From: a virus
Strand: one strand, 5' to 3'
Length of the DNA: 33,399 bases
Virus record (IMG/VR): IMGVR_UViG_3300045733_000248
Location: 1 to 33,399 of that record
Below are positions 1,435 to 28,049 of this stretch, piece by piece. Numbering within the stretch: position 1 is the stretch's first letter; each line of letters opens with the position of its first letter. A program made the translations under genes and the position numbers. The notes beneath the pieces were generated by a model, which was not told where the DNA came from, made no database searches, and saw nothing but the letters and a program-made list of their open reading frames with translations.

Positions 1435-1803
1435 TTATCTATCTTTACTATTACACCTGGGACACATTTGTTTCCAATCCGATAAGTCGCGTTTATATTT
1501 GTGACTTATGTTCGCCCAATGATATCGTGTTGAGTAATGAGTCGGGTCGTTTTCACATTTATGGGCTTTTCCCAACTTTCTTACTACCCATGAATGTAAA
1601 CTTCTGTAACTTACTTTATCGCCTCTCCAATTCCAATTTTTTTCTCCTTCAGCATCGGGTCTTTTTATTGAATGTTTCCCTTTGTTGGATTCACTCATTT
1701 TCTTTAACTGCTCTGGTGTATGTTTCCGTCCTATCATCCATTTCCCCACGCCGTTTCTTTTGCACCCGATACTAATTTTTTGGCGAACTTCCTTAGACCT
1801 CAT
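1435..1803 (-). CDS. NUMOD3 / HNH-like homing endonuclease, free-standing
   Basis: The 122-residue protein has an N-terminal NUMOD3 DNA-binding motif (RKHTPEQLKKMSESNKGKH, about residues 26-44). Its C-terminal block (HKCENDP, RYHWANISHKYKRDLSDW, CPRCNSK) is found in many phage and intron homing endonucleases and is HNH/zinc-finger-like. Such enzymes cut an allele lacking the insertion and spread by repair. Here it is free-standing, in line with the operon, between a promoter/hairpin leader with an orphan Shine-Dalgarno and the 201-aa structural gene. An extended -10 (TGATATACT) ends 6 nt before its ATG, so it is probably expressed from its own leaderless message. The DNA is AT-richer than its neighbours, consistent with recent arrival. 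Confidence 0.8.
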   Translation of the reverse strand: MRSKEVRQKISIGCKRNGVGKWMIGRKHTPEQLKKMSESNKGKHSIKRPDAEGEKNWNWRGDKVSYRSLHSWVVRKLGKAHKCENDPTHYSTRYHWANISHKYKRDLSDWKQMCPRCNSKDR

Positions 1804-2875: not shown

Positions 2876-3970
2876 TTAGACTGCTGTGATCCCGGTCAGC
2901 TTCCCTTGTCTGCGGAAACTTCTTGGAACCATTTGTCCGATGACATAGAACCTTGCGATACGACCCGCTTGATCTGGGATCGTCAACGGTTTCTGGTAGA
3001 ACCATCCGTTATATTCGCTCGGCAAACTTAATGCTTCGGCTCCTGTGCCTTCATAGGCTGACATGGTTCCGAGGTTCACTTTCTCCAGTGTATCTTTATA
3101 CATCTCAGGAACGAGCGTTCGCCCTTTCCAGTCAAAGTATTCTTCGTTGAGGAAGAATAAGACACCGCTTGTGGCAAAGTCATCTTTGATAAGAGGAATA
3201 CCGCGATAGGAAAGTGCGGTAAATCCCTGAGCGTTTTTCAGCTCAGATTTATTTCTCATCATAAACTTCCCGCGAACGGCGAGTGCCGGATACCCTGCCT
3301 CATTGTAAGAGGTTCGGATGTTCGGTGAGAGGAGCTGTTCATACAGGCTCCATACTGCTTTCGTGGTCAGTCCGACATTCGGTTCCTCGCTTGCGAGTCC
3401 CGCCGCGGATACCGCGTCATAGAGAGTCGCCATCTTCGCGAGCGTTAATGTTCCGCCTGATGCGGTAACAGTTGCCGAAAGGCTCGGATACGTGGCTCTT
3501 GCGAGTCCACCGACTGATCCACTGTCATTGACGATTTGTCCGAGTCCGAGGGGTTGGTTTCCTGTCCCATCCCCGTAGATTGCACTGCCGAGAGCCTGAA
3601 GGGCTTGGGCTGCTGCTTTCTCAAACTTGAAATCATCAAGCGAAATCGCCTGTTGTGTTCCTACGTTAGCAAAGCTCTCAAGCATGATAGATACTTGGGG
3701 CTGTGTGTAGGCCGTGTGTGCATAGCTTCCTGTCACCGTTGTTGAAACCGCTGCACTATTTAATGTTTCCAGTCCGGTGAAGAACTGTCCCTGCGTGTCG
3801 GCGAGAATATCGTATACGACATCTTCCGTTTTTCCCTCAAAGGGTTTTCCTGCGGAAACAACTCTTGAATAATAGGTCGGTGAATTGAGGACTTGATCTA
3901 CGACCTTTGCGTATATCTTTTGGTATGTTAGGTCTGATACACGACTTGTGTTTGGGATTCCATCTGCCAT
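2876..3970 (-). CDS. Major capsid protein (HK97-like fold)
   Basis: The 364-residue protein matches HK97-type major capsid proteins in size, order and composition. It has a charged helical N-terminal arm (to about residue 70), a long central region with a Gly/Thr/Ser-rich segment (around 155-185), and a C-terminal domain with IPLIKDD and LFFLNEEYFDWKGR typical of the A-domain core. It self-assembles into the shell. A separate scaffold gene lies directly upstream. Start ATG 3970 has a good Shine-Dalgarno (AAGGAG). The leader contains promoter-box-hairpin element E2 and a T-rich repeat shared with the next gene, so it probably has its own strong transcript. No N-terminal protease cleavage site was assigned. 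Confidence 0.85.
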   Translation of the reverse strand: MADGIPNTSRVSDLTYQKIYAKVVDQVLNSPTYYSRVVSAGKPFEGKTEDVVYDILADTQGQFFTGLETLNSAAVSTTVTGSYAHTAYTQPQVSIMLESFANVGTQQAISLDDFKFEKAAAQALQALGSAIYGDGTGNQPLGLGQIVNDSGSVGGLARATYPSLSATVTASGGTLTLAKMATLYDAVSAAGLASEEPNVGLTTKAVWSLYEQLLSPNIRTSYNEAGYPALAVRGKFMMRNKSELKNAQGFTALSYRGIPLIKDDFATSGVLFFLNEEYFDWKGRTLVPEMYKDTLEKVNLGTMSAYEGTGAEALSLPSEYNGWFYQKPLTIPDQAGRIARFYVIGQMVPRSFRRQGKLTGITAV

Positions 3971-4004: not shown

Positions 4005-4026
4005 TATGTGCTTATTGCACGAAAAA

Positions 4027-4055
4027 ACCGCCAACTACGGCGGTCTAAAATAACC
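4027..4055 (-). promoter_or_regulatory. Leader element E2: conserved box plus hairpin before major capsid gene
   Basis: Minus strand: box GGTTATTTTA (4046-4055), then stem ACCGCC/GGCGGT (4027-4044) and a run of T. The hairpin plus T-run has the form of an intrinsic terminator, yet it lies between the capsid gene's promoter and its ribosome site. The same arrangement recurs at the portal and ejection genes. Confidence 0.65.
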
Positions 4056-4065
4056 TTATGAAATC

Positions 4066-4095
4066 ATGCTAACACTAAGAGAAGATACTTGTCAA
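4066..4095 (-). promoter_or_regulatory. Promoter of major capsid gene
   Basis: Minus strand: -35 TTGACA (4090-4095), 18 nt, then TGT-TAGCAT as an extended -10 (4066-4074). The -35 begins 2 nt after the scaffold stop codon. Transcription would start about 4 nt before box E2. Confidence 0.65.
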
Positions 4096-5830: not shown

Positions 5831-6738
5831 TTGCCTCCTCTCACCAGTTGTTCTGGATTAGTCTGCATGAGTTGTTGTTGGGCTTTGAGTTTCGCAAGCG
5901 GCCCCTCTGGTACTCCCCCCTTAGGTATCTCTCCTGAACTAACTGAAATAGGTTTATAAGTTTTCTTTCCATTAGTATTTATAATTACATCAACTCTATC
6001 TGCATACGTACCATCAACAGCTAAATCTTTAAGAGGTACTTTAATTTTAACAAGCCCACCACTACCATAATCTTCAGCAACTGATTTCCCTGTAGAAGCA
6101 TATACTCCATAAGAAGAAGGAGCATCTTCTGGCATACCCATAATTCCATTTTTAACTATATTTTTAGCGTTTTCTGGACTTGTTGCGTGATATAAATCAA
6201 CAGTCCCATCAGGATTTACAGGTATATTTCTATTTTTAAGTTCTTGTAATACTAATTTAGCTCTATCTGGTAATTCTTTTGTTACTCCCCCTATCTCTCC
6301 TCCTGTAGGAGCTTGGGGTTCTAGGGGGGGTTCTGTTTTCGCAACGGGGCCGGAAGTCATAAACAAGTACGGCATCATCCTCGTCAAAGACTCCGGTGTG
6401 GTGTCCCGCATCTTCCCTAACTCCGATAAATCCTGAAGTGTATTGCCTGCCTGTTTTGCCCGAATGGGTAACTGTAAAGGGGGAACGAGTGTTTGAAGTG
6501 CCGTAGTTACCGGGGATTGGGTTTTCTGTTCCTGAGTAGGCTGTAACATTCCCGAAACGTAATCCGTTGCCATTTTCGCCTGCGGGGTTTGGGTAATAAC
6601 CTGACTTAGAGGAATACCGCTTTGAATGGCGTTTTGAATAGGATTGGTCGGCGTAAGACTACGAATCGCCTGTTCCACATCCTGTTTGGCAACTGCACCT
6701 TTCTGCTTAAAGAAATTCCACAAGTCCTGCGGGGTCAT
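5827..6738 (-). CDS. Virion-region protein with ADP-ribosyltransferase-like domain, 303 aa
   Basis: Residues 1-150 are a Gln/Pro-rich helical region with no family match. Residues about 170-270 look like an ADP-ribosyltransferase fold: LYHATSPENAKNIVKNG (182-198, candidate NAD-binding His184), YGVYASTGKSVAEDYG (210-225) and a strand-rich end. ARTs move ADP-ribose from NAD to a target. The final Glu/Gln motif could not be fixed, so activity is unproven. The DNA for the domain (about 5930-6290) is clearly AT-richer than both flanks, suggesting acquisition as a cassette. The gene starts in the portal stop codon (TAATG), the place where some phages encode virion proteins carrying injected ARTs (T4 Alt is the known precedent for injection). 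Confidence 0.65.
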   Translation of the reverse strand: MTPQDLWNFFKQKGAVAKQDVEQAIRSLTPTNPIQNAIQSGIPLSQVITQTPQAKMATDYVSGMLQPTQEQKTQSPVTTALQTLVPPLQLPIRAKQAGNTLQDLSELGKMRDTTPESLTRMMPYLFMTSGPVAKTEPPLEPQAPTGGEIGGVTKELPDRAKLVLQELKNRNIPVNPDGTVDLYHATSPENAKNIVKNGIMGMPEDAPSSYGVYASTGKSVAEDYGSGGLVKIKVPLKDLAVDGTYADRVDVIINTNGKKTYKPISVSSGEIPKGGVPEGPLAKLKAQQQLMQTNPEQLVRGGK

Positions 6739-8858
6739 TACATCCCCCTCGGACTCCCCTGCGGCGCGGTGACTGGCGGGGCCGCGGGAATAGCCGCCGT
6801 ATTATTCGGTGTCGGGTTTATCGGAGTGGGGGCAACAGGGGGAGCGTTTATGCCAGCAGGCGCGGGAACTTGCCCTGTCCCACCTCCCGGTGACGCTGTC
6901 GCGGCTCCCTGTCCACCCCCAAGAGCCTGCGCGGCTCCTGCTCCTAACAATCCGTCAACCAATTGAGGCGTGTTCGTCTCCATGACATATTCTGCCATGT
7001 AGGAAGCCGGATCGCCCATAAAAGTAAGAAGTTTCTTGGCTCTCCCCTGGGGATCGGAGAGTCCCATATCTTCAAAGAACGTAATCGGATCAATCATTTT
7101 CAAGGTAGCCATTTGCATCGCATTGTTCTGCGCTTTCAACTTGTCCGTACCGGAGGCTTTAATCATTACTTCCATGCCATCAGAAATTAAATCCCTGTGT
7201 AATTTGATGAACATGACCTTCCCCTTATCCCCTAACAGTTTTCTAAAATGATCTTCCGTATATCTAAGTCGGATAAACTGCATCGCCCATTGGGACATCC
7301 ATTCGCTTGCGGCGTTTATCGTATCCTCTACCACATCATCAGCCCGCGTAAAGTCAGCTTCCCTGGCGATTTGATTGGTCGTTGCGACATTTGACTGCAT
7401 CGTTCCCCGGATTGCTGAGGAACCGGATATTCCGTACATCCTTGCCCTTGTGTCATTTATGGAGGCAAACTCCTGCGGTGAGGGTTGTTCGGGGGCGATA
7501 AACGAATGGACTTTATTCACATCCCCTTCAACAAGAATATCCTGCTTGGGATCGTTCATATCCATTCGCTCTATATCGTCAGGTTTTAACCCCCCGTCTT
7601 TACTAAAGACGTGCTTCCCGCGATCGGAGAGCATTTCATCAATTTGTTTTCCCCTGCGGTCAAGAATTTCCTGATTGTGTAAGTTCTGTTCCAACCAGCT
7701 CGTTTCATCCATCGGCTGTTTGCCCCATTGATCGTACCCCATGAAGAAGAATGGTTTGCGGGGCATATCAAAGAAGTTATGATAAATCTGTTCCTTTGAA
7801 ACATTGGGGGGCATCACACCCGTTACCAAAGCGGCAAGAGCCTCCGGTGCGCCGAGTTCTTTCTTCGTGGTCGGATCGCCCGCAACTTCATAGGTAAATA
7901 TCTTTTCTTCCCCCTCATGGTCATAGTTGGGATTCTTCATCTTCTTTAAGATAATATCGTCATACTTCCAAATTACACCCGATACTTTTTCCCATTTGTT
8001 ATTCTGCTTGTCTAAAGGAGGTTGGGTATCGGCGAGTTTGCCCGTATCGTTTCTCTTATACCAGTCGCTCCATATCTCCCAAATTTTAATCGGCGAAGCT
8101 AAATCTTTCCAAGTTGGATTCTCGCCTAACATTAACCCCTGAGTTTTTAACTTGGCAAATACTTCTTCTTTTTTGTCGGGGAAGCGCATGACTAACTCCT
8201 GAACGGTCATAGAAACGCTTTGGGCGACATAACTCATATCATCCGCGTTATTTGTCGTACAGAAGTGGTCAAAGATGATATTGTCGGGATGGATGACCTC
8301 AAAGACATAATCCCCTGATTCTCCGAGTTGCGGATCCCAACGGGCTTTAATACATCCCATGAAATATACGGGAAAATGCTTGAACGCCAATCCTAAGACT
8401 TTCCTATTATTCCTTGATTTAATATCCGAGTCTACACATTCGCCTAAATCTTCCGCGGCTTGTTCGCTCTCCTTATCCCCCGGTTTACCGGCGGTAACAA
8501 TCATATCCGGTAGGTGAGTCATGGCAAGGGGTTTAATCGTTGCCATGATTTCGTAGAGGGCATTGTCCTGATTGCGACTCTCATATTCTTTTAACTCACC
8601 CTTTCTCTCCCGTTCGGCCACTTGTCGCCCGAAGTAGTAAACTTCATTTTTATGTCGCCGGGTACTTAAATGGTATTTCTGTTCATAGAACTTCTGGTCG
8701 TCATCTATTCTCTTTTTTGAAATCCGTGCCAGCTCGTCATCGTCTATCTCTAACGAGAGTGGGTCTTGCCGCGCCTCAACCATTTCCTTTGCTATGACGG
8801 GGTAATCAATGGGTGCTTTCGTAAATGAACCTTGGAGGATGCCTTGACTATTGTCCAT
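6738..8858 (-). CDS. Portal protein, podovirus-like, about 706 aa
   Basis: A 706-residue protein of the large portal type found in podoviruses (P22-like size). Residues 1-110 are charged and helical. The central part contains strand/helix blocks such as VYFMGCIKARWDP and FEVIHPDNIIFDHF. The long helical C-terminal half ends in a Gly/Ala/Pro-rich tail (after about residue 630). It forms the dodecameric DNA gate at one vertex. A GTG 18 nt further upstream lies inside the leader hairpin, so I chose ATG 8858 (MDNSQGILQG), right after the hairpin. The gene is directly preceded by promoter-box-hairpin element E3 and follows the terminase block, as usual. Confidence 0.85.
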   Translation of the reverse strand: MDNSQGILQGSFTKAPIDYPVIAKEMVEARQDPLSLEIDDDELARISKKRIDDDQKFYEQKYHLSTRRHKNEVYYFGRQVAERERKGELKEYESRNQDNALYEIMATIKPLAMTHLPDMIVTAGKPGDKESEQAAEDLGECVDSDIKSRNNRKVLGLAFKHFPVYFMGCIKARWDPQLGESGDYVFEVIHPDNIIFDHFCTTNNADDMSYVAQSVSMTVQELVMRFPDKKEEVFAKLKTQGLMLGENPTWKDLASPIKIWEIWSDWYKRNDTGKLADTQPPLDKQNNKWEKVSGVIWKYDDIILKKMKNPNYDHEGEEKIFTYEVAGDPTTKKELGAPEALAALVTGVMPPNVSKEQIYHNFFDMPRKPFFFMGYDQWGKQPMDETSWLEQNLHNQEILDRRGKQIDEMLSDRGKHVFSKDGGLKPDDIERMDMNDPKQDILVEGDVNKVHSFIAPEQPSPQEFASINDTRARMYGISGSSAIRGTMQSNVATTNQIAREADFTRADDVVEDTINAASEWMSQWAMQFIRLRYTEDHFRKLLGDKGKVMFIKLHRDLISDGMEVMIKASGTDKLKAQNNAMQMATLKMIDPITFFEDMGLSDPQGRAKKLLTFMGDPASYMAEYVMETNTPQLVDGLLGAGAAQALGGGQGAATASPGGGTGQVPAPAGINAPPVAPTPINPTPNNTAAIPAAPPVTAPQGSPRGM

Positions 8859-8870
8859 AGTTATAAAAAG

Positions 8871-8900
8871 CGCCACCTTTTCAGGCGGCGTAAAATCACC
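8871..8900 (-). promoter_or_regulatory. Leader element E3: conserved box plus hairpin before portal gene
   Basis: Minus strand: box GGTGATTTTA (8891-8900), then stem CGCCGCC/GGTGGCG with one G-T pair (8871-8890) and CTTTTT. The hairpin ends only about 12 nt before the portal ATG, leaving no room for a Shine-Dalgarno. If it terminates, portal expression needs read-through; if not, it structures the very 5' end of the message. Confidence 0.65.
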
Positions 8901-8911
8901 GAGTTGTCCTC

Positions 8912-8920
8912 ATTATACCA
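8912..8920 (-). promoter_or_regulatory. Extended -10 promoter of portal gene
   Basis: TGGTATAAT on the minus strand, 11 nt before box E3. It lies in the short gap after the zinc-protein stop. The -35 region is poor, as expected for an extended -10 type. Confidence 0.65.
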
Positions 8921-8923
8921 CAA

Positions 8924-9178
8924 TTAAACAATGCTTCTGAAAAGGTACTTTGCATTACACCGCCTCGTATTTGTGCAACGGGCTATGATAGGGAGAGTAA
9001 CGGGTTCCATGCCGGGGAACATTCGTGCCACGAACCCGCTGTATTGAACTACAGGAGAACCACAAACGGGACAATGAAACATTTTTATCCGTGATCCAGT
9101 GGGGTCGGTAATATCGTGGGCGAGCGTAACCGTTGTAACCTGAATATCCTCAACGATATGGTCTATGATAACCTGCAT
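8924..9178 (-). CDS. Zinc-ribbon protein, 84 aa
   Basis: The 84-residue protein has an N-terminal strand-rich part and a zinc ribbon made by HCPVCGSP (about 35-42) and RCTNTRRCNAKYLF (near the C-terminus), similar in layout to Com-like phage zinc-finger proteins. These bind nucleic acid or act as translational regulators in some phages; here the role is unknown. TATAAT ends 7 nt before ATG 9178 with no Shine-Dalgarno, so it may be leaderless. It sits between large terminase and portal. Confidence 0.65.
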   Translation of the reverse strand: MQVIIDHIVEDIQVTTVTLAHDITDPTGSRIKMFHCPVCGSPVVQYSGFVARMFPGMEPVTLPIIARCTNTRRCNAKYLFRSIV

Positions 9179-9205: not shown

Positions 9206-10663
9206 TTATTTTGGATAATAGGCTTTCTTCTTTATTCCCGCCCGTTCAAATTGTTCCAGTGATACCGCAACGGACTTTCCCTCATCCCATTTCGGAAGCC
9301 ATACTTTTGGTTTCCCACCAAACTTTATTCCCCCTATCTTCGCTCCGTCAAGCCACTTGAGAGCCTTCAAACAATACCGGCAATCATCCGGGGCATGATC
9401 CTCGCCGGTCGTATCCACATCTTCCACATTATTCTCATCGTGAACGAGTTGCGGGAGGGTTCTAATTAAATTAACGCAGGTTTCCGCAACAATCCAATAC
9501 GGAAGTCCGTCCGGCGCAAGACTGAGCCAGTTGTGCATATTCTCCCACCCGCCTACCCGGTCGTTGCTTGCGGGTTTAATACGAATGTCCTCACGAAGAA
9601 ATTGGTCGGCGATGGAGATAGACCTGTCCTGACCTTTAGTAAACATAGCCGGATCACCCTGAGTCCATGTAATGTCGCGTGTGGTCAACTGGAAGCCTTG
9701 TAGACGGTCTTTAATAATCTTCGCCCACTCCTTTGGGGTCTTATCAGTTCCGTAGACTTCCAAGAACGTAAATAGTCTATAAAACTTTATGGATTGCCCT
9801 TCCTCGGTAATATAGTTCTTGAACTGTAGCGCGGAAAGGTGGAAGGAAAAAGGTGCGGTGCGACCCCAATCCATTCCTCCTACTACCGCAGTAATCTTTT
9901 TGACGTTCTTCACATCGGGAATAAAAGGGGGACAAGTATGTAAGTCGGTGCGCCATTCTTTGAAGAATTGCCCGGCGAATGTTGACCAGTCCCCTAATCG
10001 CCATGCTTTCCAAAGTTCTACATCGGTACTTTTCAATCCATCTAAGAACCGCACATAATCAGGGTCGTTGTCTACAAGAGTAGGGTTGTCATCTATCCGC
10101 GCGGGGATGAAGATGCGCGTTTGCCCCGTTTCTTTATCTTGGAATGGTGTACCGGGCGGGGCGGGATCAACGAAACGAGCTTTGACCCACCCATGCCCCA
10201 CTCCACCGGGATTTGTCGTGGCGAATACTTGCGGGACAAGTTCTCGAACGGTTGAACGGCATGACGATAAAAGCTGGAGGTATCTGCGTTCTTCAGGAAT
10301 TTGCGTGAGTTCTTCAACGAGAAGTCGTTGGTATTCATGCCCTTGATATTTCGTGTAGGCTTGGTCATCTTTAAGGTGTCCCGTTTTAATTGTCGCCCCG
10401 GATGGGAATGTAATCTCTGCCGGACGGTATGCAATCTTAGCCCCCATGCCATGATAGAAGCGCACAGCACGATCCACCCAATCAGATAGGTCATCGGCAT
10501 TACGCCGTATAACCAGAGCGCGATAGCGAGGATGAGTAGCGCCATTGAGTAACCATACCAACCCTGTATCAGTTTTGCCGCCTCCCCTTGCCCCTCCGAA
10601 AAGTATTTCGAAGGCGTTTTGCCTGAGCGCTTCTTCTTGCTTTGGATGAGGTTTCCAATCCAT
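9206..10663 (-). CDS. terL: Terminase large subunit
   Basis: The 485-residue protein has the two-domain architecture of TerL. The ATPase carries Walker A GGARGGGKT at residues 23-31 and a Walker B-like LLVEELTQI near residue 115, with the coupling region TTNPGGVGHGWV following. The C-terminal RNase H-like nuclease begins with GGMDWGRTAPF (first acidic residue), with TQGDPAMF and later DHAPDDCRYCL supplying further acidic positions. It pumps DNA into the prohead and cuts concatemers. The start is one base after the DUF4258 stop, with a weak GGAG upstream. Length is normal for the family. Assignment is secure. Confidence 0.95.
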   Translation of the reverse strand: MDWKPHPKQEEALRQNAFEILFGGARGGGKTDTGLVWLLNGATHPRYRALVIRRNADDLSDWVDRAVRFYHGMGAKIAYRPAEITFPSGATIKTGHLKDDQAYTKYQGHEYQRLLVEELTQIPEERRYLQLLSSCRSTVRELVPQVFATTNPGGVGHGWVKARFVDPAPPGTPFQDKETGQTRIFIPARIDDNPTLVDNDPDYVRFLDGLKSTDVELWKAWRLGDWSTFAGQFFKEWRTDLHTCPPFIPDVKNVKKITAVVGGMDWGRTAPFSFHLSALQFKNYITEEGQSIKFYRLFTFLEVYGTDKTPKEWAKIIKDRLQGFQLTTRDITWTQGDPAMFTKGQDRSISIADQFLREDIRIKPASNDRVGGWENMHNWLSLAPDGLPYWIVAETCVNLIRTLPQLVHDENNVEDVDTTGEDHAPDDCRYCLKALKWLDGAKIGGIKFGGKPKVWLPKWDEGKSVAVSLEQFERAGIKKKAYYPK

Positions 10664-13037: not shown

Positions 13038-13337
13038 CTACTTCCACACATTCTTTGCGTTCCTTAATTCCTTTTTAGTGAATGTCTTTTTGGCGCGTTC
13101 CGGGTACGCTTCTATAAACTCGCGGGACGCTTCACCCGCACGATAGGGTTGTAAAATATCTTTGGAAAACTTCTTCCGATCCTCTTTAATTCGTTGGGGA
13201 ACCCACTCGTGTTGCGGGGGCTTGAACCATTTATCGCAGAACCATCCCCACTTCACTTCCTCAACATTTGAAAGGGATGCAAAGCGCCAGTTTAAGGCAT
13301 CATGTTTCTTTCGACAGAGAATACAGTAATTTATCAT
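13038..13337 (-). CDS. Hypothetical protein with Cys motifs, 99 aa
   Basis: The 99-residue protein opens with YCILCRKKHDALNWRF, a CxxC pair, followed by a Trp-rich stretch (KWGWFCDKWFKPP) with another Cys, and a basic helical C-terminal half ending in KNVWK. A small zinc-binding fold is plausible from one CxxC plus Cys/His. It starts in a TAATG overlap with the zinc-finger microprotein upstream. Not a recognised family. Confidence 0.6.
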   Translation of the reverse strand: MINYCILCRKKHDALNWRFASLSNVEEVKWGWFCDKWFKPPQHEWVPQRIKEDRKKFSKDILQPYRAGEASREFIEAYPERAKKTFTKKELRNAKNVWK

Positions 13338-13547: not shown

Positions 13548-14129
13548 TCATGGATCGAGCGGTTCACTGCATTTTACACATCCGTCTTTAATTGCGCACA
13601 CCTGCGCCCACCGCATTATTCCTACCTTTAATTCTCCCGTATCCTGATTTGTCTTACCGGCCGGAATATCCAGCACGCTGTAAGGCATATTGTTTTTCGT
13701 ATACCCATACGTCAGCCATTGGTGTTCAATTCCCTGCGTGACTGACGGCCACCAACTCCATAAAACCTTTGTCGGCGACAACGCCTTGAATCCCTGGAGT
13801 ATCGGCGCTTCTATCGGCACCGTACATATCGCAGCTACCGGAGCGTTCGTAGAGCTTCCTGCAAATTGCGGGGGACTCCCACCGCTTCCCGTACTTGCGA
13901 TCGGGGTTACTTCCGGCGTTACTTCAGGAGTCGGCGTTATACAATCCTCATTCACCGTACACTCATTCGTTCCTATTCCTGCCGCCCGTACACACGCATC
14001 ATCCCGACATACCGCGTGAGTGGAATTGCAGGTATAACTTGCCTCTGCTTTTCTTGCAAATATAAACGAGAGAAGAATAAGAAGTAATAACCCTAAAATT
14101 ACCCATAAATACGTTCTATCTCTTTTCAT
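13548..14129 (-). CDS. Secreted or membrane-anchored Cys-rich protein with FnIII-like end, 193 aa
   Basis: Start ATG 14129 is chosen for its Shine-Dalgarno (GGAGGTGAT, 8-nt region). Residues about 5-28 are a signal anchor (LWVILGLLLLILLSFIFA) followed by AEAS, a plausible cleavage site. Then comes a Cys-rich segment (YTCNSTHAVC, CVRAAGIGTNECTVNEDC) and a linker TPTPEVTPEVTP. The C-terminal 100 residues (FKALSPTKVLWSWWPSV, YGYTKNNMPYSVL, AQVCAIKDGC) have the strand pattern of a fibronectin III-like domain. This combination recalls surface proteins of Patescibacteria genomes, from memory. An exported phage protein in the early region might alter the cell surface, for example against superinfection. 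Confidence 0.65.
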   Translation of the reverse strand: MKRDRTYLWVILGLLLLILLSFIFARKAEASYTCNSTHAVCRDDACVRAAGIGTNECTVNEDCITPTPEVTPEVTPIASTGSGGSPPQFAGSSTNAPVAAICTVPIEAPILQGFKALSPTKVLWSWWPSVTQGIEHQWLTYGYTKNNMPYSVLDIPAGKTNQDTGELKVGIMRWAQVCAIKDGCVKCSEPLDP

Positions 14130-14379: not shown

Positions 14380-14437
14380 GGTTGGGAACGCCCCAAAACT
14401 CTTAGTGAGTTCCATTCCGAAAACTCCATTCCCAACC
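14380..14437. repeat. 9-bp perfect inverted repeat with 40-nt insert
   Basis: GGTTGGGAA (14380-14388) and TTCCCAACC (14429-14437) are perfect complements. The insert also holds two near-identical AAAACTC direct repeats and a small CTC/GAG hairpin. It lies in the 127-nt gap between the 85-aa and the zinc gene and may be a structured leader RNA or an operator. Confidence 0.45.
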
Positions 14438-14475
14438 AATCCAATCTACCTTTCTCTCTCGTTATAGAGGGAGAG

Positions 14476-14733
14476 TTATTTTTTAGTTTTTGGCGTTAAT
14501 ACAAACATTACTGAATTTTCTTGTTCTTCTGCACGATAATATCCACCTTGACACTCATAAACATTTGCGCCGAAAACTCTGTCATGTCTAGCATCAACGA
14601 ATGTTCCTACCTTAATAACTGTATGAATATCATCATCAGGCGAAATATAACTCAATGCTTCTTTTTCTGCATCATTTTCAGCCGTAAACATTATTTGCTT
14701 TACTTGGTCTGTAATTAAAATTGCTGTTTTCAT
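14476..14733 (-). CDS. Hypothetical protein, 85 aa
   Basis: Start ATG 14733 follows a strong Shine-Dalgarno (GAGGAGGAAT). The protein (MKTAILITDQVKQIMFTAEN ...) is a small alpha/beta protein with an acidic helix (DAEKEALSYISPDDD) and a C-terminal strand region (ANVYECQGGYYRAEE). No motif is recognised; the look is of a small single-domain soluble protein. Confidence 0.6.
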   Translation of the reverse strand: MKTAILITDQVKQIMFTAENDAEKEALSYISPDDDIHTVIKVGTFVDARHDRVFGANVYECQGGYYRAEEQENSVMFVLTPKTKK

Positions 14734-14759
14734 ATTCCTCCTCTCGTTATAGAGTAGAG

Positions 14760-14891
14760 CTATTTCCAAATTGCTTTTACTATTATTTCTAGTGATGCAA
14801 AAATTGTTGGTAATGACAACGCTATTCCTGCGGCAAGTATCATACACCCACAACCCATTCCCTCATATAAGTCTTTTTTATCATTTTTCAT
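14760..14891 (-). CDS. Small single-pass membrane protein, 43 aa
   Basis: The frame reads MKNDKKDLYEGMGCGCM followed by a hydrophobic helix (ILAAGIALSLPTIFASLEII) and a short VKAIWK tail. It is flanked on both sides by the repeated junction motif; the stop codon lies inside one copy. It has no clear Shine-Dalgarno. Function unknown. Confidence 0.5.
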   Translation of the reverse strand: MKNDKKDLYEGMGCGCMILAAGIALSLPTIFASLEIIVKAIWK

Positions 14892-14912
14892 ATAGAGTAG
14901 AGCTACTACAAC

Positions 14913-15008
14913 TTATGCGTTATTCCTCCCGCACCAATTACATTGTACAACACCTTTTTTATTTGATAGTAAGTGTCCGCAGTGTTTACAAAATCGTAAT
15001 TTATTCAT
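14913..15008 (-). CDS. Zinc-ribbon microprotein, 31 aa (paralog of the 30-aa one at 15.6 kb)
   Basis: MNKLRFCKHCGHLLSNKKG followed by VVQCNWCGRNNA is a complete zinc-ribbon pair, CxxC-x(13)-CxxC. It is closely similar over its whole length to the 30-aa protein encoded at 15568-15660, so one is a duplicate. It starts in an ATGA overlap with NinG. Such minimal ribbons resemble the ribbon of transcription factors or primases; the role is unknown. Confidence 0.7.
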   Translation of the reverse strand: MNKLRFCKHCGHLLSNKKGVVQCNWCGRNNA

Positions 15009-15379
15009 ATAAGTTCCTTTAGTTTTTCTTCATAGAATACTTGGTTAAACGTGATCTTTTTTTGTTGGTCTTTCAATAATCCGGTATATTCTTTCACATA
15101 CTTTACCATCATGGATCGCCAGAACTCCGGGTGGTAAGTGTAATAGACATGGTGGCCGCTACAAATACACAAAGCGTTTCTGAAGTCCCACCGTAAGAAT
15201 AAATTTCCCCGACCTATGATGTGTGCCGTTTGTAATACTCCCCCGCAGTTCACATGGTCTTTTCCTTGAAGATAACATCGTCCAAACTCCCGTACTTTCA
15301 AGCTAAATAGTTTATCCAGCTTATTCTTCGCCGTTGTTTTATTCCATTTCTTTTTCTTCGCAAACATCAGCTTTTTCAT
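15005..15379 (-). CDS. ninG: NinG/Rap-like recombination nuclease, 124 aa
   Basis: The core GRCYLQGKDHVNCGGVLQTAHIIGRGNLFLRWD, then NALCICSGHH, matches lambda NinG (Rap)-like proteins of the HNH superfamily: a Cys pair, AHI-GR, RWD, N and C-x-C-x2-H. Rap resolves recombination intermediates. The protein has a basic N-terminus (KKKKWNKTTAKNKL). It lies in the recombination/early cluster with the ERF-like annealing protein about 2 kb upstream. The family call is good; the substrate in this phage is unknown. Confidence 0.8.
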   Translation of the reverse strand: MKKLMFAKKKKWNKTTAKNKLDKLFSLKVREFGRCYLQGKDHVNCGGVLQTAHIIGRGNLFLRWDFRNALCICSGHHVYYTYHPEFWRSMMVKYVKEYTGLLKDQQKKITFNQVFYEEKLKELI

Positions 15380-15397
15380 ATCTCTTGAATAGTAGAA

Positions 15398-15571
15398 CTA
15401 AATATATCCTTCTCTCATTAAGTGTCCAATTATTGGGTCTTTCATCAAAAACGCTTTCATTCCTTGCTTAAAATGCGCTTCGCACAAATGAACGGTCTTT
15501 TTCAACGTATGGTCTATCACTGTATATCGTATTTTTATTTTACAACCTTCTAACGCTTCACACTTTTTCAT
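15398..15571 (-). CDS. Small Cys/His protein, 57 aa
   Basis: Start ATG 15571 overlaps the stop of the zinc-ribbon gene (ATGA). The protein has CEALEGCKIK and HLCEAHFKQG, a C-x5-C and C-x2-H arrangement able to bind zinc, followed by a helical end. No family recognised. Confidence 0.55.
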   Translation of the reverse strand: MKKCEALEGCKIKIRYTVIDHTLKKTVHLCEAHFKQGMKAFLMKDPIIGHLMREGYI

Positions 15572-15660
15572 GCGTTTACCCTTCCGCAATTCTTACAAAT
15601 AACAATACCTTTTTTCTTTGACAATATATGGCCGCAGAATTTACAGAACCGTATCACCAT
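15568..15660 (-). CDS. Zinc-ribbon microprotein, 30 aa
   Basis: Start ATG 15660 has a Shine-Dalgarno (GAGGAAGAAAT). The protein MVIRFCKFCGHILSKKKG, then IVICKNCGRVNA, is a minimal CxxC-x(13)-CxxC ribbon, paralogous to the 31-aa one at 14913. It overlaps the HTH gene by 7 nt, suggesting coupling with a DNA-binding partner. Confidence 0.7.
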   Translation of the reverse strand: MVIRFCKFCGHILSKKKGIVICKNCGRVNA

Positions 15661-15818
15661 ATTTCTTCCTCTTTGGCTTGCTTTAATCTCCGGCCGACTG
15701 TCCCCACACTGATATTGTACTTCTTGGCAAGCTGGTTCCACGACATACCCCCCCGGTGTTCCCGAAGCATCTTTTGTCGGCGTTTCTTCCATGTGTTTAA
15801 CCATGCGGCTCGTTTCAT
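15654..15818 (-). CDS. Helix-turn-helix microprotein, 54 aa
   Basis: MKRAAWLNTWKKRRQKML, then GMSWNQLAKKYNISVGTVGRRLKQAKEEE, forms a textbook HTH (LAKKYNISVGTVGRRL with the turn at NIS-VGT). The N-terminus is strongly basic. At 54 residues it is a minimal DNA-binding regulator or a Xis/terminase-type adaptor. TATACT lies 6 nt before its ATG. It is the first gene after an intergenic hairpin, so it may head its own transcript and regulate the genes after it. Confidence 0.7.
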   Translation of the reverse strand: MKRAAWLNTWKKRRQKMLREHRGGMSWNQLAKKYNISVGTVGRRLKQAKEEEIW

Positions 15819-15824
15819 AATAAT

Positions 15825-15830
15825 AGTATA
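15825..15830 (-). promoter_or_regulatory. -10 (TATACT) for leaderless HTH gene
   Basis: TATACT ends 6 nt before ATG 15818. A TTGACA lies 8 nt further upstream, too close to pair with this -10, but at 16 nt from TATTAT, which overlaps the ATG. Which pair is used is uncertain. Confidence 0.4.
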
Positions 15831-15855
15831 TACCCGATTGTCAATAGTTCCCTGT

Positions 15856-15880
15856 ATTGCCGTCAGTGTATGGCGGCAAT
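15856..15880. terminator. 9-bp intergenic hairpin after ParB-like gene
   Basis: ATTGCCGTC pairs with GGCGGCAAT (one wobble) around a 7-nt loop, directly after the ParB-like stop codon and before the HTH promoter. It lacks a clear T-run, so it may be a weak terminator or a binding site. Confidence 0.45.
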
Positions 15881-15887
15881 CACGAAA

Positions 15888-16568
15888 TTATTTCACGTAA
15901 CTTAACAAAATTTCGTACATTTCGTCCGTATCGGTTGAAATGGCAATAATCTTCCCGCGTGTTTTTATTGCATTTGCAACCACCACGTCTTTCTTCTCCT
16001 GGGCAAGTCTACGCGCTGCATACGCTACCGACCGGGGCAACATACCCTTTCTATTACTTAACTGACGAACGTCAAAAAGTAAATCCGCTGCCCGATGAGC
16101 GATCTCCCGTTGTTCCGGGTTAAACCGCAACCGTTCCAAAAGCGTCTTGGAGTTCAAACTTCCTCCCGCCAGTCCCCCGACATGAAGAAGTATTCCTATA
16201 CTTGGGGAAAGGGCGTAATCATCACAAAACCCCCTCAGGTAGAGCATTGTTTTATTCCCCAGTACAATCATGCTATCTATAAAATCTTTCAACTTCCAGT
16301 TGCGTAGGGTCGTATTCAGCTCAATAATCTCATCCAGTCCCGACCGGGGAACGACAAGGTAATAAATCGGCCATTTATTTTGCTTCGCAACCTCAAGGCG
16401 GTGTTGACCGTCAATAACTTCCATTGCCTCATTGACGAGAATAGGAGCGTATTCCAAGAGGTTTCGCTTGCTAATACTGACCGTCAACTTCGCAAGATGT
16501 CCCTGATTTAATGTTCTGTTTCCGTTGACAAACTTAAATTGATCGTAATTTGTTGTTTTTTGGATCAT
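15888..16568 (-). CDS. ParB-like (ParB/sulfiredoxin fold) protein, 226 aa
   Basis: The 226-residue protein has the ParB-nuclease fold signature in VNEAMEVIDGQHRLEVAKQN (near 45-65), followed by WPIYYLVV and a helical part (residues 85-226) that lacks an obvious ParB HTH. DGQHR is the catalytic/nucleotide loop of this fold. Phages use such proteins as CTP switches, nucleases or regulators. No ParA is nearby. A strong Shine-Dalgarno (AAGGAGGTGA) precedes ATG 16568, which lies inside the zinc gene upstream. Confidence 0.75.
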   Translation of the reverse strand: MIQKTTNYDQFKFVNGNRTLNQGHLAKLTVSISKRNLLEYAPILVNEAMEVIDGQHRLEVAKQNKWPIYYLVVPRSGLDEIIELNTTLRNWKLKDFIDSMIVLGNKTMLYLRGFCDDYALSPSIGILLHVGGLAGGSLNSKTLLERLRFNPEQREIAHRAADLLFDVRQLSNRKGMLPRSVAYAARRLAQEKKDVVVANAIKTRGKIIAISTDTDEMYEILLSYVK

Positions 16569-22146: not shown

Positions 22147-22892
22147 TTTGGAAGTAAAACTTTAATAGCGTTGAGGCGTGTCCACCAGTATCCCGGCCCC
22201 CACGTGATATCATGTATCCTCTTTACAAGGGACGGGTAGTCTACGGGGATCGTAGGAGGCGGAGGCGGTATCGGAGTGGGAGCCGGGGGAGCTTGAATTA
22301 GCCAAAGTAATACTCCCTGGGTATTTTTATATGCGTGATACGTTACCCCATCTTTTGTTACGGTTTGGCCCTCGAATGTCGGTGCGTAGCCGGGATTTGG
22401 TTCCGGTAATGGTGTGGCAAGTATTTTCGCTTCCCGTACAATTCTCTCTACGTCTAAAGCATCTGGGCAACCAGTCGGATGAACCTCTGAATGCTTCAGG
22501 ATATGCTGCCGGTCAATGGGAATATTATAAAACGTACAGATGTCAGCAACGAGTGCGGCGCTTGTTTTATAAAGTGTATCCGGTCGTGTTCCGTTATAGT
22601 TACCCAAATCCGAATGTTCCACCCCTATACTTCTTTGATTCATGGCGTAATCGCCAGCCTGATATGCAGTAAATGTTTCTTCTAACCCATGATAAAGTTT
22701 CCCGTCCCAATCAACGATGTAATGAGCCGAAACTTTCGTCCCTATAGTGGAAAATCTTGCAATAGCACCATCTTTTGTTCCCACAACCGTATGTATTATC
22801 ACTCTGTCTATCGGCTTACGGGTTTCATCGTAATTGCCATCCGCAACTGTAAATTCAGTAAATGGTAAAGACGTTGAAATTCTGCTAGGCAT
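22143..22892 (-). CDS. N-acetylmuramoyl-L-alanine amidase endolysin, 249 aa
   Basis: Residues about 25-150 are an Amidase_2/PGRP domain: His34 (VIIHTVVG), Tyr58 in SAHYIVDWDGKLYHG, IGVEHSDLG, then KHSEVHPTGCPD with His134 and Cys142. The spacing of 8 equals the zinc ligands His122/Cys130 of T7 lysozyme. It cuts the amide bond between MurNAc and L-Ala. Residues 165-249 form a Pro-rich linker and a C-terminal WGPGYWWTRLNAI segment that may bind cell wall. Start ATG 22892 has GAGAGGA upstream. A plus-strand HNH gene starts 17 nt further on and separates it from the promoter at 23354-23362. Confidence 0.85.
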   Translation of the reverse strand: MPSRISTSLPFTEFTVADGNYDETRKPIDRVIIHTVVGTKDGAIARFSTIGTKVSAHYIVDWDGKLYHGLEETFTAYQAGDYAMNQRSIGVEHSDLGNYNGTRPDTLYKTSAALVADICTFYNIPIDRQHILKHSEVHPTGCPDALDVERIVREAKILATPLPEPNPGYAPTFEGQTVTKDGVTYHAYKNTQGVLLWLIQAPPAPTPIPPPPPTIPVDYPSLVKRIHDITWGPGYWWTRLNAIKVLLPK

Positions 22893-22902
22893 ATGTTATC
22901 CT
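22874..22902 (+). promoter_or_regulatory. Plus-strand promoter of HNH gene 1
   Basis: TTGAAA (22874-22879), 17 nt, TATCCT (22897-22902) with TG-T before it. It ends 6 nt before ATG 22909, so a leaderless message is expected. It lies within and just upstream of the amidase start, on the opposite strand. Confidence 0.55.
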
Positions 22903-22908
22903 CTCGGT

Positions 22909-23340
22909 ATGGAACATATTACTACGGGTAGAATTAAAGTCCAATGTGCCAATTGCGGTAAACAATTTATTAAATGGAGAACGGAACTTCATAAAAATAA
23001 CTTTCATGCTGCTAATTGCTATTTTGATTTCATCAGAAAAGGAAAACATGATGTTATTGGCTTGTCTGCGGAAAGACACCCGAATTGGCAAGGCGGTAGA
23101 ACGTACATTAATGAGGATGGATACAGATTGGTTTGGGCATTTCATCATCCGAGAGCGCATCAAAATGTAGTTAGGGAACATATACTGGTTATGGAAAAGA
23201 AACTTGGCAGATTTCTTAAAAAGGGAGAAGAAATTCACCATATCAATCATATTCGTGACGATAACCGTCCTGAAAATCTTGAATTGTGTTCTTCTCACAG
23301 TAAACACCTTTCTACTTATAAACATCCTCATCATGCGTGA
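22909..23340 (+). CDS. HNH homing endonuclease 1, 143 aa
   Basis: MEHITTGRIKVQCANCGKQF carries a CxxC knuckle. The C-terminal half has the HNH_3 core: REHILVMEKKLGRFLKKG, EIHHINHIRDDNRPENLELC and SHSKH. The enzyme nicks or cuts DNA and is typical of mobile endonucleases in phages. It is on the opposite strand to almost everything else and AT-rich compared with its neighbours. It sits between the amidase promoter (23354-23362) and the amidase itself. A longer frame starting at 22834 would overlap the amidase gene and is not needed. Confidence 0.85.
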   Translation: MEHITTGRIKVQCANCGKQFIKWRTELHKNNFHAANCYFDFIRKGKHDVIGLSAERHPNWQGGRTYINEDGYRLVWAFHHPRAHQNVVREHILVMEKKLGRFLKKGEEIHHINHIRDDNRPENLELCSSHSKHLSTYKHPHHA

Positions 23341-23353
23341 TGTCATATTTTTT

Positions 23354-23362
23354 ATTATACCA
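23354..23362 (-). promoter_or_regulatory. Extended -10 promoter facing the amidase
   Basis: Minus-strand TGGTATAAT, identical to those of portal and ejection genes. HNH gene 1 (antisense) now lies between it and the amidase. An ATG 7 nt downstream opens only an antisense frame through the HNH. Confidence 0.5.
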
Positions 23363-23375
23363 TTCACGTCCGTTA

Positions 23376-23453
23376 TCATTTTAAGAACCGAGAAAGGATG
23401 GCGACAATGGCTGATACAATGCCGATTGCTGTTGATATTGTATGCCATTGGTG
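23376..23453 (-). pseudogene. Displaced C-terminal membrane helix, remnant
   Basis: A stop-to-stop minus-strand frame without a start encodes QWHTISTAIGIVSAIVAILSRFLK-like sequence (25 residues, one membrane helix). It aligns well with the C-terminus of the coiled-coil protein at 23898-24509 (GWGISIAAFGMIIGILGVMF...): W, IS-A, G and the hydrophobic pattern match. It lies between two HNH genes and before the amidase promoter. It is probably the former 3' end of that gene or of a lost paralog. Confidence 0.5.
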
Positions 23454-23460
23454 TTATAGA
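23432..23460 (+). promoter_or_regulatory. Plus-strand promoter of HNH gene 2
   Basis: TTGATA (23432-23437), 17 nt, TATAGA (23455-23460) with TG-T before it, ending 7 nt before ATG 23468. Leaderless expression is likely. Confidence 0.5.
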
Positions 23461-23467
23461 TATAGTC

Positions 23468-23914
23468 ATGGTGAAAAGCGGGAAATATCTGTCGTGTCAT
23501 GTATGTCATAAACTCGTCTATATTCAGAAGTATAGATGGGAAAGTTTTCTGTGTTGTTCCCCTCATTGTCGGGGTGTGTATTCGGGAAGCAAACAGAATA
23601 CAGGGCGATTTCAGAAAGGGGAACACATGGGGGAAAACCATCCCCGATACAAGGGGGGCTGTGTGCTGAAGTCTGGTTATAAACAAATTTTTCATAATGG
23701 AAAGAGATTTTTGGAACACCGTTTTATAATGGAACAATATATTAAAAGAAAACTTAAAAGAAACGAGGTAATTCATCATATAAATCATATTAAAACTGAC
23801 AATAGAATAGATAATCTTAAATTGATGAGCAATTCGGAACATACTAAAGCTCATCCTGAAGTAAGTTTTAAAAAAGGTCATCCACCTTATTTTCATATTA
23901 GCCAAAAACTTTAA
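23468..23914 (+). CDS. HNH homing endonuclease 2, 148 aa
   Basis: MVKSGKYLSCHVCHKLVYIQ has a CxxC knuckle paired with CCSPHC. The segment GENHPRYKGGCVLKSGYKQI is a common DNA-contact stretch in these enzymes, and RFIMEQYIKRKLKRNEVIHHINHIKTDNRIDNLKL (described in parts: HHINHIKTDNR) is the HNH core. It is a distant relative of HNH 1. ATG 23468 is chosen because upstream in-frame sequence overlaps HNH 1 in another frame and a promoter ends 7 nt before it. The 3' end overlaps the convergent coiled-coil gene by 17 nt. Confidence 0.85.
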   Translation: MVKSGKYLSCHVCHKLVYIQKYRWESFLCCSPHCRGVYSGSKQNTGRFQKGEHMGENHPRYKGGCVLKSGYKQIFHNGKRFLEHRFIMEQYIKRKLKRNEVIHHINHIKTDNRIDNLKLMSNSEHTKAHPEVSFKKGHPPYFHISQKL

Positions 23915-27052: not shown

Positions 27053-27979
27053 TTATTTTAGTGTTGCGCTTGATGTTGGTGTTTTTCCAAAGATTGTATC
27101 GAGAGAAACCGTTGGTGTTGGTTGCGTTAGATATGTCGAGGGATTTCCCCCTCCCGTTCCACTAGAACTGCTCCCCAAATCCTGAATTGTCTGTCCGGTT
27201 GCGGAGTTTATAAGTAACTTTCTCCCCCCAACCTCTACTATTTGTGTATTGGCTTTTGCCGCTTCGGTATACGCTTGTTCTTTCGCTGCTAAATCTGCCG
27301 CCTGGGATGATTCCTGCAAGGTAAGAGCTGACCCCTCCCGCATTTTTTCAAGGAGCGTATCAAGTTGCGCCTGCATGATTGACGTGTAGCCGGAAACTTC
27401 TCGCGCTGCCGTATCTGACACCATGCCAGCCTCGGTAGTCCAGGGCAAAAGTTCATTCTGCATTTGTTGTGTCGCAAGAGGAGTAACGGCTGCAAGCGCA
27501 TTGGAAATTCCTGTTGCTGCCGGGCCAAGTTCGCTTTGTTTCTGGTTAATTATTCTCTGAAGTTGATTGGCATTGGTATCAAAATAACGATTTGCCGCCA
27601 ATTGTGTTGTAGGCATATTGGTTATATTGGTTGCCATATCCTGCGCAGCTTTAGAAAGTGCGGGGATTCCGAGTTCAGTTTGTATTCTCTCTGCCATACC
27701 GGGAGTGGCTGCGGTCGTATCTGTTGCGGGAGTACCTGAAATTGCTGCGCGAAACCTAGCAAGGAAATCGGTTTGATTTGTCGCTGCATTTTTAAGCGCA
27801 TCGGTTATGGCTGAGGTATCTACCGAGGCCGATCCTCCTCCACCTGACCCGTTTCCGGCCCCACCGGTCGTTCCCTGTTGTACCCACGATCCACCAGGCT
27901 GGCCTTTCCAGTTATATCCGCCAAAATCTACCGTCTGATTTACTGTGTTCGGAGCATAGGGGGGTGGTGTAGCTGCCAT
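27053..27979 (-). CDS. Putative internal virion protein, 308 aa
   Basis: ATG 27979 has a good ribosome site GAAAGGAAAA; a GTG 30 nt upstream lies in the leader hairpin and is not accepted. The protein has a Gly/Ser-rich N-terminal region (GNGSGGGGSASV, about 40-60), then long helices (about 65-245) rich in Ala/Gln/Thr, and a Gly/Ser/Thr-rich end. It is headed by promoter-box-hairpin element E4. By order it belongs with the ejection proteins. Confidence 0.6.
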   Translation of the reverse strand: MAATPPPYAPNTVNQTVDFGGYNWKGQPGGSWVQQGTTGGAGNGSGGGGSASVDTSAITDALKNAATNQTDFLARFRAAISGTPATDTTAATPGMAERIQTELGIPALSKAAQDMATNITNMPTTQLAANRYFDTNANQLQRIINQKQSELGPAATGISNALAAVTPLATQQMQNELLPWTTEAGMVSDTAAREVSGYTSIMQAQLDTLLEKMREGSALTLQESSQAADLAAKEQAYTEAAKANTQIVEVGGRKLLINSATGQTIQDLGSSSSGTGGGNPSTYLTQPTPTVSLDTIFGKTPTSSATLK

Positions 27980-28000
27980 AATTTTCCTTTCAAAAAAAAT

Positions 28001-28029
28001 GCCGCCCACAAGGACGGCGTAAAATCACC
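28001..28029 (-). promoter_or_regulatory. Leader element E4: conserved box plus hairpin
   Basis: Minus strand: box GGTGATTTTA (28020-28029), stem GCCGTCC/GGGCGGC with one wobble around TTGT (28001-28018), then A and eight T, then the Shine-Dalgarno of the ejection gene. It has the form of a complete intrinsic terminator in a 5' leader. Confidence 0.7.
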
Positions 28030-28040
28030 AATACAAACTT

Positions 28041-28049
28041 ATTATACCA
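28041..28049 (-). promoter_or_regulatory. Extended -10 promoter of the ejection gene block
   Basis: Minus-strand TGGTATAAT, 11 nt before box E4, the same spacing as at the portal gene. It begins in the short gap after the 61-aa gene. Confidence 0.65.

Follow-up and report, generated by a model that had tools for sequence, protein, structure and literature searches.

Small hairpins overlapping promoter-proximal terminators before virion genes of uncultivated tailed phages: candidate three-strand attenuators

Leaders in the window

The DNA analyzed here (the window) is the 33,399-b virus record IMGVR_UViG_3300045733_000248, whose genes lie nearly all on the minus strand. At three places on this strand, E4, E3 and E2, an extended -10 element is followed by a spacer of 10-11 nt, the sequence GGTKATTTTA (the "box"), a GC hairpin, a U run and a structural gene (Table 1; the subdivision into arms and loop is explained below). 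The initial annotation had placed leaders of this order in front of structural genes, and reading of the DNA bears it out for these three, with the portal gene behind E3 and the major capsid gene behind E2. Its fourth place, E1 (1887-1852), does not belong to the series: there is no -10, the box is mismatched, and both a complementary arm and a T run are missing. The gene behind E4 had been called an ejection gene; it is indeed a conserved gene of the structural module, but an ejection protein is only a putative identity for its product.

Table 1. Features of the three leaders and associated genes in the window.
Feature	Positions	Strand	Sequence or identity	Basis or remark
E4 extended -10	28041..28049	-	TGGTATAAT	DNA reading; in relatives, such promoters are enriched ahead of terminators
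E4 box	28029-28020	-	GGTGATTTTA	DNA reading
E4 arm1	28026..28029	-	GGTG	5' arm of mini-hairpin
E4 loop	28020..28025	-	ATTTTA	
E4 arm2	28016..28019	-	CGCC	pairs with arm1; common to terminator foot
E4 terminator hairpin	28001..28018	-	GCCGTCC-TTGT-GGGCGGC	7 bp
E4 T run	27992..27999	-	8 T	after one A
E4 gene (cluster 7)	27053..27979	-	conserved virion-module gene	leader precedes it in 14/17 genomes
Terminase	9206-10663		terminase	recognised by PHROGs
E3 extended -10	8912..8920	-	TGGTATAAT	
E3 box	8900-8891	-	GGTGATTTTA	
E3 arm1	8897..8900	-	GGTG	
E3 loop	8891..8896	-	ATTTTA	
E3 arm2	8887..8890	-	CGCC	
E3 terminator hairpin	8871..8890	-	CGCCGCCT-GAAA-AGGTGGCG	8 bp
E3 T run	8865..8869	-	5 T	after one C
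E3 gene	6738..8858	-	portal, phrog_156	ATG at 8858; GTG start at 8876 also open
E2 -35	4090..4095	-	TTGACA	
E2 extended -10	4066..4074	-	TGTTAGCAT	
E2 box	4055-4046	-	GGTTATTTTA	
E2 arm1	4052..4055	-	GGTT	
E2 loop	4046..4051	-	ATTTTA	
E2 arm2	4042..4045	-	GACC	
E2 terminator hairpin	4026..4045	-	GACCGCCG-TAGT-TGGCGGTT	runs into T run
E2 gene	2876..3970	-	major capsid, phrog_9953	

By itself the box carries little weight: with one mismatch allowed, the window gives 12 matches against 7.1 in shuffles (7 of 100 shuffles reach 12), and terminator-like sites show no clear excess as such. A homing-endonuclease-like gene (1435-1803, minus strand; weak match to phrog_314) belongs to the capsid module and follows shortly downstream of E1. 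Two HNH endonuclease-like ORFs, judged from their sequence alone, stand on the plus strand (22834-23340 and 23204-23914) among other genes of the minus strand.

Named relatives of the portal and capsid proteins are only distant, namely the TM7 (Saccharibacteria) phage DolZOral124_53_65 (22-34% identity) and an environmental Caudoviricetes genome (27-32%). Both of these, and most of the related phages, carry a GroEL gene, in most cases with an adjoining GroES-like gene (clusters 11 and 12, e.g. 14396-15961 and 15963-16259 in L262). The window has neither, probably because its genome is incomplete (33 kb vs 38-44 kb).

Arm pairing and terminator coupling in related phages

Viral contigs were searched with the terminase and the capsid protein, and about 80 loci from each search were taken, out of 185 and 475 confirmed. 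This comparison is the basis for the order of the parts, the pairing and its covariation, the link to terminators, the gene context and the constancy of the loops. Upstream of genes in the relatives, an extended -10, 10-18 nt, a hairpin and a U run follow one another at most capsid loci and at several portal loci. A strong -10 is found 10-30 nt upstream of 132 of the 240 gene-strand terminators at the related loci, compared with about five strong -10 elements per 10-nt bin farther away and with 4/131 on the other strand; the combination of promoter and terminator is far beyond chance.

The letters of the box are not conserved: relatives have other letters at its position, and what stays is that the bases preceding the AU-rich loop can pair with the foot of the terminator 5' arm. 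The pairs seen (arm1/arm2) are GGTG/CGCC, CGAC/GTCG, GGAC/GTCC, GAGT/ACTC, AGGT/ACCT, AGCG/CGCT, CGAG/CTCG, GGCT/AGCC, GGAG/CTCC and GGAA/TTCC, as well as GCC/GGC with G and C exchanged. Since the arms vary yet stay complementary, the "box" of the window is to be read as arm1 and loop of a mini-hairpin, and arm2 of this mini-hairpin also belongs to the terminator. Hence GGTKATTTTA cannot be maintained as a conserved element; what is kept is the complementarity of its first four bases with the foot of the terminator hairpin. The test proposed along with the box, conservation or compensatory change in relatives, is thus passed by the structure but not by the letters. A box conserved in sequence was also sought directly by scanning viral contigs for TATAAT-N8-16-AAGG-N-ATTTTA-N0-2-CC; this candidate was rejected, as most of the 101 stretches obtained were without a terminator.

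Pairing was scanned with a GC requirement, so that A/T-only pairs cannot win. An arm1:arm2 mini-hairpin with a score of at least 9 occurs in 59.9% of 162 non-redundant leaders from 71 sources (near-duplicate sequences removed, the remaining leaders still related by descent). When terminator hairpins were swapped between leaders, a control that keeps composition and position, the value dropped to 19.4% (sd 2.7, maximum of 500 swaps 26.5%), and among terminators without a promoter it is 23%. About 40% of the promoter-terminator leaders fall below the threshold, having 3-bp arms or none. Contigs from another capsid alignment served as a hold-out and were tested by the same criteria: 10 of 13 leaders score at least 9 and 12 of 13 at least 8, the swap means being 3.3 and 4.9, and 0 of 1000 swaps came as high. 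Ten leaders were aligned, with loops padded with N, from one single phage (G003, the L189 contig), eight of them found by script and two with terminators that missed the scan criteria. All 40 of their 40 cells are paired, changes occur on both sides at all four pairs, and the covariation score is 1.01 vs 0.39 shuffled and at most 0.13 with a slid partner; as these ten arms were picked with the pairing known, the unbiased tests are the swap test on 162 leaders and the hold-out.

A further possibility is that hairpin and U run are insulators against upstream read-through or stabilisers of mRNA 5' ends, with no regulated termination at all. In its favour, the leaders lie between tightly packed co-directional genes. 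A promoter placed upstream of the terminator, however, would have its own transcript blocked, and the arm1-arm2 pairing competes with the hairpin instead of supporting it, so that we give this explanation hardly any credence.

Strong promoters of 17 genomes were then divided by what follows them. With a terminator, 47 of 69 have the mini-hairpin (shuffled 9/69); without one, 66 of 767 do (shuffled 65/767). The mini-hairpin is therefore tied to terminators and not to promoters, and a general 5' tag of promoters was rejected as an interpretation, the rate without terminators being that of chance. By the same figures the fifth copy of the initial annotation (13024-12995) is at chance level: a -10 is present and so is a weak mini-hairpin of 4 pairs, but there is no terminator, and the copy cannot be counted as a member. 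Tandem second modules without a promoter of their own do retain their own mini-hairpin (L185, L190, L261). A further tandem module was read by eye in the near-identical contigs L221/L222; all these modules (L185, L190/L193, L261, L221/L222) stand upstream of the capsid gene, directly behind the first module. The L261 contig (JANLHC010000032.1), whose leader has the loop of the window (GGTT-ATTTTA-GACC) in addition to its tandem second module, is a phage capsid contig inside a Candidatus Scalindua MAG, which likely reflects the binning of a viral contig and is not proof of a host. A genome search for the host gave a single match, a 4.4-kb contig in a Candidatus Scalindua MAG, which is uninformative.

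Judged by its distance from the -10, arm1 would lie at about +2 to +8 (most often +5) and the end of the terminator at about +27 to +43, the whole leader being 27-43 nt long. This near-fixed position of arm1 at about +5 would suit a processive antitermination of the Q or put type, for which HK022 put RNA and lambda Q are precedents; here the 5' hairpin would be a pause or loading signal, the terminator a gate, and the polymerase would go on to ignore later terminators. We regard this scenario as quite improbable, because mini-hairpins occur only where they overlap terminators, because tandem second terminators have their own mini-hairpin, which would be needless after processive modification, and because loops such as ACATA, CTA and TAAA, judged by eye, do not look like -10-like pause elements.

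In two relatives with few or no attenuator leaders, G005 (L270-L272) and G012 (L300-L301), many genes have their ATG only a few nt downstream of this same TGnTATAAT, which suggests leaderless mRNAs and lends independent support to real promoters with the start assumed here.

Gene context was counted in annotated genomes, and the counts are lower bounds, since neither near-duplicate leaders nor 3-bp or imperfect forms entered them. A leader stands before the cluster 7 gene, which follows E4 in the window (27053-27979), in 14 of 17 whole genomes, before the major capsid gene in 12/19, before an SU10-adaptor-like (tail-adaptor-like) gene in 7/19, before the portal gene in 6/19 and before cluster 16 in 6/9. 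No leader was found in the annotated genomes before the terminase, GroEL, the GroES-like gene or cluster 6, whose place is upstream of the capsid gene. More distantly related phages, namely L303 (MW202566, capsid gene at 14045) and those of the L241-L260 group, have a promoter and a terminator before the capsid gene, together with a mini-hairpin that is GCT-[TTA/TAA]-AGC or unclear and a frequent ACGC..AGCAGTCC motif; these are perhaps an older form of the same switch.

A proposed switch before virion genes

The arms of all mini-hairpins are 3-5 bp and their loops 3-8 nt long, which gives 9-18 nt overall (14 nt in each leader of the window). When nascent prefixes were folded, the mini-hairpin was part of the minimum-energy fold in 85 of 88 leaders before arm3, the 3' arm of the terminator, and in 4 of 88 after it. 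Mean energies are -2.5 kcal/mol for the mini-hairpin vs -11.5 kcal/mol for the terminator; in the window they change from -4.4 to -14.4 kcal/mol at E4, from between -5.4 and -5.8 to -15.4 kcal/mol at E3 and from -3.3 to -13.3 kcal/mol at E2. With the terminator so favoured by energy the default state should be off. At -2.5 kcal/mol, the mini-hairpin may have little effect unless a partner assists it.

The leaders thus contain two mutually exclusive hairpins that share one strand, the downstream one in the form of an intrinsic terminator, and compensatory changes preserve the antiterminator pairing while the terminator is kept (in G003 and in the pair types across 88 leaders). We propose, with a probability of roughly two in three, that each leader is a minimal three-strand attenuator before a virion-gene module, off by default and opened by a factor. 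Start site, termination, antitermination, the factor and its timing are what we infer in this scenario, which would run as follows. Transcription would start about 6-7 nt past the -10, which puts arm1 at about +5. In the nascent RNA arm1 would pair with arm2 across the AU-rich loop, a pairing that the covariation supports, and form the weak mini-hairpin. As soon as arm3 is made, arm2 would switch to it and form the strong terminator hairpin, followed by the U's at about +30 to +40, and by default the polymerase would stop before the gene, as the energies and the terminator form suggest. Late in infection, a factor recognising the phage-typical loop would hold the mini-hairpin and thereby keep the terminator from forming; with several copies per genome, all virion modules would be opened together. 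The phage-wide late switch of the initial annotation survives in this reduced shape: a recurring leader of promoter and terminator before structural genes, consistent with antitermination, but without the box, E1 and the fifth copy. Counted against a switch is G005, which has the same promoters almost without leaders and yet the same core genes.

A passive attenuator would do without any dedicated factor, the mini-hairpin slowing or weakening the folding of the terminator and a fixed read-through setting the dosage of virion proteins. The three-strand design physically works without a protein, some leaders have 3-bp arms or none, and our searches for a factor came out empty (see below). On the other side, the terminator is favoured by about 9 kcal/mol, so that any passive effect should be small, and the loop sequence is constant within a phage, for which a passive device has no need; on balance we consider a passive attenuator unlikely. 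The loops are 90% A/T and phage-typical, with ATTTTA in the window, ..TTC or ..ATC in G003, ACATA in G004 and G017 and ACTATA in G007. Their edit distance is 0.227 within a phage vs 0.435 between phages (0 of 300 shuffles), although arms from one phage likewise resemble each other somewhat more than arms from different phages, and loop constancy could thus partly reflect recent copying between loci.

The factor that would open the attenuators was sought among phage-encoded proteins. None of 24 related phages has an ANTAR protein above the PF03861 cut-off (one sub-threshold match, 18.6 bits), and no gene was found that is present in all leader-rich and absent in all leader-poor genomes. Two near-universal small proteins of zinc-binding type, clusters 9 and 10, could not be tied to the loop, which they track no better than structural genes do (correlation of loop and protein distances, rho 0.30 and 0.09 vs 0.28 for MCP). 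The best correlation, rho 0.55, is that of GroEL and perhaps reflects host lineage. In the window these two small proteins are encoded on the minus strand. One, of zinc-ribbon type (8924-9178), lies between terminase and portal and is present in nearly all relatives and in MW202566; its AlphaFold model (pLDDT 90) had no PDB match at E<=0.001. The other (13038-13337) contains cysteines, carries the conserved motif IKExRKxYxKDILQPFRxGxLSKEY and is present in 14 of 14 leader-bearing genomes examined; it matched no Pfam family, and its model is poorer than that of the first.

More tentatively, and as something we hold possible without quite expecting it, a large clade of uncultivated tailed phages may run its late programme through a multi-copy RNA switch of about 35 nt and a loop-specific factor that in each phage co-evolves with the loop; this would be a new, minimal kind of antitermination system that differs from N/nut, Q, put, RAT and ANTAR. 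If true, a large uncultured phage group would control its virion genes by scattered, unusually small antiterminator/terminator switches, where other phages might use one gate of the Q type or a late sigma factor. There would then be a precise RNA element by which late promoters can be recognised in metagenomic phages, and a search criterion for the RNA-binding antitermination factor. Saccharibacteria (TM7), in which phage gene control is little known, are the hosts of the nearest named relative, though they need not be those of the window phage.

Comparison with known systems

No covariance model of Rfam 15 matched the leaders, even when filters were permissive and E<=5 was allowed, and no earlier description of such leaders was found in the open-access literature, most subscription journals lying outside this search. 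The initial annotation had named lambda Q and put as precedents, a parallel not supported by our data: the RNA is about 30-40 nt long with one mini-hairpin, which is not enriched where the terminator is missing, and the loops do not resemble a -10-like pause. Lambda Q loads at a sigma-dependent pause that requires a specific DNA element (PMC7171158). Late genes behind a promoter-proximal terminator are common to pR'-tR' and the present arrangement, but here the leader has about 35 nt and a covarying RNA hairpin is tied to each terminator. Compared by eye with NANNAT, the -10-like pause element of the initial transcribed region, ATTTTA does not seem to fit, and ACATA, CTA, TAAA and ATTTTC do not look -10-like. 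HK022 put is an RNA of about 70 nt with two stem-loops that binds polymerase and takes effect across distances of at least 10 kb (PMC9378689). It is likewise a promoter-near phage RNA and defeats terminators, whereas here each terminator is overlapped by its own mini-hairpin within a leader of 27-43 nt.

Judged by analogy, the closest precedents are the RAT (BglG/SacY) and ANTAR attenuators, neither of which the initial annotation had named. In ANTAR targets (EutV, NasR, AmiR) there are two hairpins, whose loops have A in the first place and G in the fourth (PMC3369931). The leaders share with them a mini-hairpin with a loop of about 6 nt that lies directly upstream of an intrinsic terminator and overlaps it, and the spread of several such terminators across one regulon. 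They differ in having one hairpin, the position of arm1 at about +2 to +8 leaving no room for a first one, and in loops of 3-8 nt such as ATTTTA, which has no G. RAT, the target of the BglG/SacY family, is a stem-loop antiterminator of 29-30 nt (PMC3369931). There, as here, a single antiterminator hairpin partly overlaps the terminator and only one of the two can form; the RAT antiterminator is stabilised by a protein, the counterpart of which would be our putative factor. The present hairpins, by contrast, measure 9-18 nt, have an AU-rich loop and occur in phages, in many copies per genome. The leaders work like RAT and ANTAR attenuation, yet they depart from the defining features of both.
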